In this document: one piece after another, positions 4,598 to 7,500 of the stretch
Numbering within the stretch: the stretch's first letter is position 1
Layout of the letters: each line of letters begins with the position of its first letter
Source of the DNA: Calditrichia bacterium
GTDB taxonomy: Bacteria > Calditrichota > Calditrichia > RBG-13-44-9 > J075
Assembly (NCBI GenBank): GCA_028284905.1
Contig: JANQQU010000089.1
Span: forward strand, 1 to 64,000
Length of the DNA: 64,000 nt
Reading direction: 5' to 3'
Translations under genes and position numbers: made by a program
Notes under the pieces: generated by a model
Seen by the model: the letters and a program-made list of their open reading frames with translations, nothing else
Told to the model about the DNA's origin: nothing
Databases searched by the model: none

Positions 4598-7500
4598 TCA
4601 CGTTTTTTTCGAAACAAATTCCGATGGGGGTTTCCCGTATTCTTTGCGGAAGGAACGGGAAAAATAGGCGAGATTATTAAAGCCGACAGCGTAGGCGATT
4701 TCCGATATTGTACCGGCTCCTTTTTCCATCATCTGTTTCGCACGCTTCAGGCGAAAAGAGCGAACAAAGTCTGTCGGTGTTTGCCCGGTGAGGGCGCGAA
4801 TTTTACGAAGCAGTTGGCGCCTGCTCATGGCAAGATCGCTGCTGAGCTTCTCTACATTAAAATCTTCTTCGGCAAGATTTTCCTCAACAATAGCTACCAG
4901 TTTCTGCAGAAACTGTTCTTCTACAGAAGTTACCGCGATTTCTTTCGGTTGCAGAATCCCTTCTTTCCGGTATCGTTCACGTAGATTACGGCGCAATTCG
5001 ATCAAATTATTGACCCGGGTACGTAACTCTTTGGAGTTGAATGGCTTGGTGAGATAATCATCAGCGCCGGTTTCCAGCCCGGCCAGTTTATCCTCTTCCC
5101 CGGCCCGGGCAGTAAGCAAAATAACCGGAACATGACTGGTTTTTTCATTGGTTTTCAGCGTTTCACATAGTTGGTAGCCGTCCATTTCCGGCATCATTAC
5201 ATCACTAATGATCAGGTCGGGAATGTTCTCAACGGCAGCGGCAACGCCGGCTTTACCATCCTCAGCTTCAATAATCTGAAAATCTTTTTCCAGGGTTCGA
5301 CGAATGTATCTACGGACGTCCGGGTAATCGTCTACGATTAGGATGATTTCGGAATTTTGGAATTCGGAATTCGGAATTCGGAATTCGGATTTTCGATTTA
5401 GGTCTACCTCTTCGGGAATTTCTGATTGCTCCTTTAAAGAATTCGGAATGTCGAACGTCGAATGCGGAATGTCAATTTGGGAAGATTCCTCTAATTCCGC
5501 ATTCCGCATTCCCAATTCCGCATTCGAATCATTCGCAATTTGATCCGAGTCCAGATGTGAATTTCCCAGCGGCAGGCGAATGGTGAAGACCGTCCCCTTC
5601 CCTTCTTTACTTTCGGCCTTGATTTCCCCATGATGTAAAGCAATCAGTTCCTTCGTCAGCGCCAGACCAATGCCACTGCCTTCGTATGCCCTGGTGGCGG
5701 AACTGTCAACCTGATAGAAACGATCAAAGATGTGTGGCAAGCGATTCGCGGGAATGCCGATGCCGGAATCCTTAATAGTTATCAGTAAACAGTTATCAGT
5801 GATCAGTTTTTTATCCCTTGATTGATCACTGTTCACTGATAACTGTACACTGATCTTCCCTCCATCCGGCGTAAATTTAAAGGCATTCGAAAGTAAGTTG
5901 GCAAACACCTTCTCCATTTTGTCAGGATCAAAATAAGCATTCGCCAACAATCCTTCCTGATTCTCTACGCTATCAAATTGCAAGTCGATATTCTTTCGAT
6001 GGGCGAGGGAAGCGAATGACATGACAATCCCCTTCAAAAATGCCAGGAGATCTCCCCGGGAGGCTTTCAATTCCATTTTCCCGGATTCCAGGCGGGAAAG
6101 ATCCAGCAACTGATTTATCAGTCCCATAAGGCGGTTGGCATTTCTTTCCATAATTCGTAATTCATCGCGGGTAGTGGCATCGGGGATTTTCGCAAGAACA
6201 TCTTCCAAAGGGCCGAGAATGAGCGTTAATGGGGTACGAAATTCATGGGAAATATTAGCAAAAAATTGAGATTTAAGCTGATCCAGCTCCTGCAGTTTTT
6301 CGGCCTGCTTACGAATTTTGACGGTTCTTTCGGAAACAATCGCTTCCAGCTCCCGGGTCTTCCTTTCCAGGTGGCGAACCCGGTATTTTACAACCAGCGC
6401 AATAAACGCAACACCTAGAATCCCATACAATAAGTAAGCCCACCAGCTCAAATGCCAGGGCGGCAGAATTGTGAAGTTAAAAGCATCTTCAGAGCTCAGC
6501 TGACCATAAATATTCTTTGCGCGAACCCGAAAAGTGTAGTCCCCGGCCGATAATGCCGTATAATCTTTTTTCGCCTCTTTCGTCCACCCGGACCATTTTT
6601 TATCGAATCCTTTAAGTTGATACTGAAAATGATTGGCGGAAACATCATCATAACTGGTAGCGCTAAACTCAAATCTGAGCGTATTATTGGCAAAAGCCAA
6701 TTCTGGCACAGCAGAATTTCCTGCTATGTTATCATCCGGCGGGGTTCCCCCATAAATCAGAGAATCTCCGTTGACAACCATTCTCCGAACCAGCGCATTA
6801 TATTCGTCGCTATAATCTTTTCCGAAATGGGAGGTGTAACGGCTAACCCCCTCGGCCCCGCCAAACCAAACCACACCATTTTCTTCCGGATAAACAGCGA
6901 TTAAATTTCCCAGGCGCTTCAAACGTATGAATGGATTTTCTTCCCAGTTGTAAGAGCCGTCCGGTTGCAATAGCGCTCTGCCGACCAAAGATTTGTTCGC
7001 ATGGTTACCACGCACCCAGATATTATTACGATGATCAACGGCAATCAATGTAATACGGCATAATGAGTCGGCCAACATCTGCCCGAAGGTTGTATCCGGT
7101 AAAAAGAGTTGCCGGTCAGCATCAAAGCTTCGCAGACCTTTGTAACTGGTAAAAAAAACCCGGCCGGCGACACGAAAAGGCATAATTACACTGGAGGGTA
7201 AACCATGTGCCTCGTCGAAACGGGTAATCTCCATCCCGGGCGACGCGTCGAGCGCATTAGAAGCCTGAAAATCGATGTTCAGCTTTATCACGCCATCCAC
7301 CCGGCTCCCCATCCAAACTGCACCATCGTCATCCTCGGCAATACCATATACCGGAAATGTTAAATCGCGGAATCGCTCAACCGCTTGCCATTGATTATCC
7401 CGAAAGCGCAGGGCAGCGAGCCCTCTTTCTCCCCCAACAAAGATCCAGGAAGCATCCTGCCGGGAGCGATAGAGCAGCCGGGGGGATATATTTTCCAAAT

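Follow-up and report, generated by a model that had tools for sequence, protein, structure and literature searches.

The heptanucleotide short tandemly repeated repetitive (STRR) sequences of cyanobacteria consist of seven-base tandem units that are dispersed through the genome and have been seen in RNA genes; to our knowledge, no case has been described in which they fill a kinase loop in frame. Repeats of the heptamer TAACTGA are mostly intergenic and have a patchy distribution in Beggiatoaceae, Cyanobacteria, and Bacteroidetes. They were described as direct repeats with one inverted case, and their reverse orientation codes for LSVISYQ; where they fall in open reading frames (ORFs), it is mostly at the ends of proteins or within hypothetical ones (MacGregor 2015, PMC4679880). 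In Coxiella, the intervening sequence (IVS) of the 23S rRNA has tandem GACAGAT heptamers before the S23 ORF, and their number varies between strains (PMC4990558). The palindromic elements of Rickettsia are short and occur both between genes and in frame within genes, where the protein can stay active, as for gmk (PMC2229807). REPIN/RAYT systems consist of dispersed inverted doublets, and every family is associated with one particular single-copy gene that has the repeat on its flanks (PMC3116915). In-frame palindromes (Rickettsia, PMC2229807), this heptamer (Beggiatoaceae, PMC4679880), and IVS genes (in rRNA) were already known. We analyzed a 64,000-nucleotide stretch from a Calditrichia bacterium (assembly GCA_028284905.1, contig JANQQU010000089.1, positions 1 to 64,000; here called the window), in which an inverted pair of TAACTGA heptamer arrays lies in frame within a hybrid two-component kinase gene. 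In the literature that we searched, there was no description of a single recurrent protein site for such repeats or of a pairing between arm family and protein lineage.

We consider this insert to be a gene-less, nonautonomous-looking TAACTGA palindrome from an element class linked to four-helix-bundle proteins, tolerated as a hairpin extension in a permissive loop that has been occupied more than once (probability roughly 0.7). The features concerned are as follows.

5776 to 5855, minus strand: in-frame inverted pair of TAACTGA/AGTTATC heptamer arrays, coding for ISVQLSVNSDQSRDKKLITDNCLLIT (arms 5781 to 5807 and 5828 to 5854, spacer 5808 to 5827)
4598 to 8854, minus strand: hybrid two-component kinase of 1,418 amino acids (aa) (Reg_prop, Y_Y_Y, HisKA, HATPase_c, REC, AraC-type HTH), with its frame open across the element
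17000 to 17031, plus strand: left arm of a four-helix-bundle/IVS cassette, TAACTGA family
17094 to 17408 (profile-match coordinates), minus strand: four-helix-bundle gene between the arms (TIGR02436, PF05635 23S_rRNA_IVP), closest solved structure 2rld
17548 to 17587, minus strand: inverted right arm of the same cassette, TAACTGA family

An earlier note on this DNA had reported the inverted heptamer pair at 5776 to 5855, and its arms, motif counts, folding, and genome-wide matches all confirmed it. The arms are 27 nt each and 89% complementary, with a 20-nt gap between them, and each contains two 7-nt direct repeats. The plus-strand heptamer is AGTTATC, and its reverse complement, GATAACT, is TAACTGA rotated. 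With up to one mismatch, CAGTTATCAGT matched the window 13 times, compared with 0.68 expected, and none of 100 shuffles reached 13. Clustered matches occurred at 5776 to 5845 and at both ends of the IVS cassette (17000 to 17031 and 17556 to 17587), so the note had correctly assigned the insert and the cassette ends to one heptamer family. A tandem unit was also evident, with a Tandem Repeats Finder consensus of AACTGAT at 17548 to 17587 and the 14-nt repeats AGTTATCAGTAAAC / TGATAACTGTACAC at 5777 to 5854. The coding strand of the insert folds with -36.7 kcal/mol (z = -8.3). Rfam searches returned only microRNA and small RNA models below the gathering score, which were taken as chance hairpin matches. 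There is no ORF in the kinase insert, whose spacer is all that separates the arms, and a PF05635/TIGR02436 ORF does lie between the inverted ends of the cassette. The cassette (17000 to 17587) would be the larger form of the element, carrying its PF05635 gene between arms of the same kind.

The kinase ORF stays open through the insert, as the note had also claimed. HisKA, HATPase_c, Response_reg, and HTH_18 all scored above cut-off in profile searches (102.7 bits for HATPase_c, PF02518), and alignment showed that the N, G1, and G2 motifs are intact. The repeat-coded peptides are ISVQLSVN (arm 1) and LITDNCLLIT (arm 2). An AlphaFold2 model of the HisKA-HATPase region, built with 37 aligned sequences, had a mean pLDDT of 90, and the solved folds nearest to it were those of HK853 and related kinases. 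It contained the loop extension that had been anticipated, in the form of a beta-hairpin with an extended turn. A strand at residues 144 to 152 (KISVQLSVN), the turn at 153 to 165, and a second strand at 166 to 173 (LLITIKDS) precede the G1 box (DSGIGIP); the turn is less certain, with mean pLDDT values of 65 and 79 in the two 10-residue blocks that span it. The note had placed the insertion between a strand and DSGIGIP. It is indeed within the HATPase fold, but the arms are predicted to encode largely both strands of the hairpin, and not its turn alone, with the spacer encoding the turn.

To place the insert in its genomic context, we used a two-unit TAACTGA pattern, which matched 247 times in the 8.55-Mb genome; the reversed control did not match. 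Genome stretches were sampled rather than counted exhaustively, with locations from roughly the first hundred of the 247 matches, and the resulting 1.73-Mb set was partly chosen for repeats and kinases. The repeats in it were mostly intergenic, with 46 of 51 clusters not wholly inside ORFs. The remaining five were all in this loop, in five kinase paralogues, two of which had been fetched as kinases and one of which is the window kinase. Inverted pairs were common, there being 26 palindromic TAACTGA elements in the set. Heptamer arrays within proteins were limited to this loop, the linker between HATPase and REC of the same kinases, three secretion-tail domains, and apparent N-terminal start artifacts, together with a few weak arrays. 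We also searched 1.02 Mb of tiles chosen blind to repeats, 90% of which is coding. By coordinates, 2 of their 43 period-7/8 arrays were in ORF interiors. One is 31 codons into its ORF and is probably a start artifact. The other is in a further hybrid kinase, where ATCCGAA-type heptamers occupy the same loop. TAACTGA repeats have been associated with positions just upstream of start codons; in this respect, the orientation of genes neighboring the repeats was near background (30/8/7 versus 420/118/63). A role as transcription terminators was rejected, there being no clear excess at convergent gene ends (7/45 versus 63/601 background gaps).

The note had called an in-frame element of this kind rare. 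Over the entire genome this holds, but not for this loop, which is filled by repeats in 12 kinases here and in several other genomes. The loop contains TAACTGA arrays in five kinases of this genome (L071, which is the window kinase, L056, L069, L103, and L105), AATTCCG/AATGCGG arrays in six (L102, L104, L108, L109, L110, and L111), and an ATCCGAA-type array in one (C39 near 131.7 kb). Relatives G005 and G006 have the loop filled by ATCCCCCCTGTCCCCC, which is present in 40 places in G005, including kinase loops L117 and L072. In G012 and G014, the loop carries CCCGTCTGGCCACCGGACAGG, which occurs about 10 times per genome, and two of the G014 matches are inside kinase genes. L072 and L074 belong to two congeneric species and are 86% identical over the 180 nt past the loop; at the same codons, they have unrelated palindromes. 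Furthermore, the loop of a kinase of the gammaproteobacterial Candidatus Parabeggiatoa (L171) holds a TAACTGA palindrome of five units, with a different spacer. Judging from these sequences, the kinase hairpin loop is a recurrent landing site for unrelated repeats and a rare safe one within a gene.

We also scanned DNA from 84,980 species for ACTGATAACT just before a G1 motif. The scan returned 27 stretches, and L171 was the only true kinase case. Most of the others were dismissed as chance, being short-chain-dehydrogenase-like proteins with LITGGDSGIG or intergenic arrays in Planktothrix and Microcystis. The TAACTGA-rich genome G034 (113 matches) had no match of the ACTGATAACT-plus-G1 pattern. 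Therefore, a genome full of TAACTGA need not use the kinase loop. A side observation concerns the L110 kinase (C60), in which a second repeated piece, CCTGTCCCTTCGGGG, occurs twice within the AATTCGG array of the loop and is absent from its sister, L109. This suggests a nested insertion.

The gene in the cassette is one of nine TIGR02436 genes found here (window 17094, C19:20707, C12:13470, C40:124589, C23:201, C33:48758, C13:100926, C30:48731, and C47:67730). Visual inspection showed inverted short-repeat flanks, belonging to different families, at all nine, and eight stand out by score. The C40 and C19 genes have related flanks and encode related proteins. We extended the analysis to 52 four-helix-bundle loci drawn from this genome and its relatives. 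Of these, 73% had an inverted flank score of 30 or more, compared with 1.6% of 497 control ORFs. Across about 50 loci, protein similarity and flank similarity had a weak but significant correlation (rho = 0.10, permutation p = 0.0035), and in the 28 pairs with strongly similar flanks, some of which are from a single genome or genus, the median protein similarity was 0.41, versus 0.17. The window protein and Parabeggiatoa L245 are mutually nearest in the set, and both genes have TAACTGA-type flanks. The only link between four-helix-bundle genes and heptamers that we found in the literature is the Coxiella IVS report (PMC4990558). RAYT was rejected as the mobilizer, because two Y1_Tnp loci here are without a period-7/8 array and have inverted flank scores of 20 and 18. 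A broader idea can be put forward tentatively, at somewhat less than even odds: PF05635 proteins might be sequence-specific partners of cognate heptamer-array palindromes, binding or moving the arms, and the two together might make up a class of mobile element. The 23S rRNA IVS would be a special case of this class, gene-less copies would land in permissive RNA or protein hairpins, and the histidine kinase hairpin would be the main coding site.

If transposition was the process, a palindrome would have come to occupy the tip and flanks of the beta-hairpin preceding the G1 box, with little effect on the kinase. Its tolerance probably stems from the position of the hairpin tip, away from the ATP site; from the length of this copy, which keeps the frame without the stops of a perfect array; and from the arm peptides (QLSVxS..., LITDNCLLIT), in which polar and hydrophobic residues alternate as they do in the strands replaced. 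Reoccupation of the loop by unrelated palindromes probably reflects the fact that few coding sites survive such an insertion. Resident palindromes possibly also attract new ones.

The note had expected a gap of about 20 residues in all orthologues, and the loop lengths were not so uniform. Across about 50 homologues the loop is 23 to 62 aa, with 34 aa in the window kinase. Most unoccupied loops are 23 to 29 aa, but in L082 and L083, the two sequences nearest to the window kinase on the tree, the loops are 44 and 35 aa of nonrepeat sequence. What supports insertion is instead the DNA: the same arms recur at many intergenic sites, and sister genes have this loop filled by different repeat families. 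Several observations weigh against our reading. The intergenic TAACTGA palindromes share arms and not spacers, which is unlike copies of one transposon, and the spacers of four of the kinase inserts are alike (17 to 24 of 29 nt). For the TAACTGA family, we saw neither a transposition event nor a target duplication or an empty site, and the nearest relatives are without the family. Six orthologous intergenic sites of the CCCCCC family were compared between the sister species G005 and G006. One was a nearly clean empty site (L260/L276), and at L264/L278 a larger insert, whose long inverted ends are ATAAATGCGAATTAAGAGTTGAAA / TTTCAACCCTTAATTTGCATTAT, was present in L264 and missing in the sister. 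At three others (L257/L280, L261/L277, and L268/L279) the sister held different repeat-like sequence, and the L259/L281 alignment was uninformative. This comparison suggests site turnover and reuse. As for the four-helix-bundle genes, C40:124589 was counted as flanked by eye, with an inverted flank score of only 21, and several of the mutual-nearest pairs are not independent, both members belonging to one genome or genus.

The similarity among the kinase spacers, which the intergenic spacers do not share, is what would be expected if gene conversion or descent had carried one or a few insertions into several paralogues, without the loop being a hot spot here. L102, L109, L110, and L111, which have AATTCCG loops and form one clade on the tree, point the same way. 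However, the TAACTGA kinases are scattered on that tree, and an approximately unbiased (AU) test of four of them rejected a single clade (p = 9e-5). Different repeat families also occupy the same loop of paralogues, and other genomes, including one from another phylum, have other repeats or spacers at the same site. We regard spread from one or a few insertions as the less likely account, although some of the recurrence seen in this genome may go back to conversion between paralogues or to common ancestry.

Considerably less probable is that nothing was inserted and that slippage at heptamer-like codons produced the array where it stands, with the same happening again in paralogues. A seed is conceivable, because L-I-T in the pre-G1 strand can be encoded by CTGATAACT, and the unrelated HATPases of Nostoc (L175) and Nitrospirota (L176) have a single ACTGATAACT, apparently by chance, at exactly that strand. 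The overlap of arms and strands and the different spacer in every dispersed TAACTGA copy would also fit. Slippage yields direct repeats, however, and not an inverted pair with so stable a hairpin; AATTCCG, ATCCGAA, and CCCCCC-type repeats fill the same loop without such a seed; and the same arm family is present at many intergenic sites. We give similarly little credence to a selected function, either of the mRNA hairpin as an RNase III site or of the protein loop in tuning the kinase. The hairpin is very stable, the Coxiella 23S rRNA IVS is excised by RNase III (PMC4990558), and repeated occupancy of one site could mean a benefit. Set against this, the occupants are unrelated in sequence, many paralogues have none, close relatives carry different ones, and cleavage would cut the coding sequence. 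A tolerated palindrome in a reoccupied loop remains the reading that we prefer.

Other repeats were noted in the window and elsewhere in the genome. Two more in-frame heptamer arrays are in the HATPase-REC linker of the window kinase, and paralogues carry similar arrays there.

5351 to 5400, minus strand: second in-frame heptamer array of the 1,418-aa kinase, AATTCCG family
5491 to 5525, minus strand: third in-frame heptamer array, AATGCGG variant, inverted relative to 5351 to 5400

Period-7 DNA also encodes the secretion-tail domains NYPNPFNPxTxIGFRISDVGxV of L036 (C13:81457), L068 (C89:158390), and L105 (C67:41911), a possible further coding landing site. Elsewhere in the window, an inverted AAAGTTCAGGGTTC / GAACTTTGAACACTGAAC heptamer palindrome directly follows a gene (54208 to 54294), and there is an octamer array, AAATGGGC, at 42613 to 42651, whose family also flanks the four-helix-bundle gene C30:48731. 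Weak, subthreshold RNA-family matches are stacked on both strands between two genes at 11307 to 11530, which is probably another palindrome.

At this locus, repetitive DNA has come to be translated at a single structural position through repeated events, a case that is well delimited and open to testing. It also joins two old puzzles, the origin of dispersed heptamer repeats and the role of four-helix-bundle (S23/IVS) proteins, which are widespread. If every protein lineage is paired with an arm repeat of its own, specific binding is to be expected, and a simple assay could check for it. The repeats share their heptamer and mostly intergenic location with those of MacGregor (PMC4679880), but here inverted pairs are common, and kinase loops and four-helix-bundle genes are involved, neither of which is mentioned in the portions of that report considered here. 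As in the 23S rRNA IVS, a PF05635 gene lies inside inverted ends in the cassette; the elements here, however, are between protein genes or, when gene-less, inside a protein gene, and not in rRNA. Like the Rickettsia palindromic elements, they are dispersed palindromes found both between genes and in frame within them, but with arms that are heptamer arrays and with mainly one structural site used. Finally, the gene tied to the repeats here encodes a four-helix-bundle protein, whereas in REPIN/RAYT systems it encodes a tyrosine transposase.
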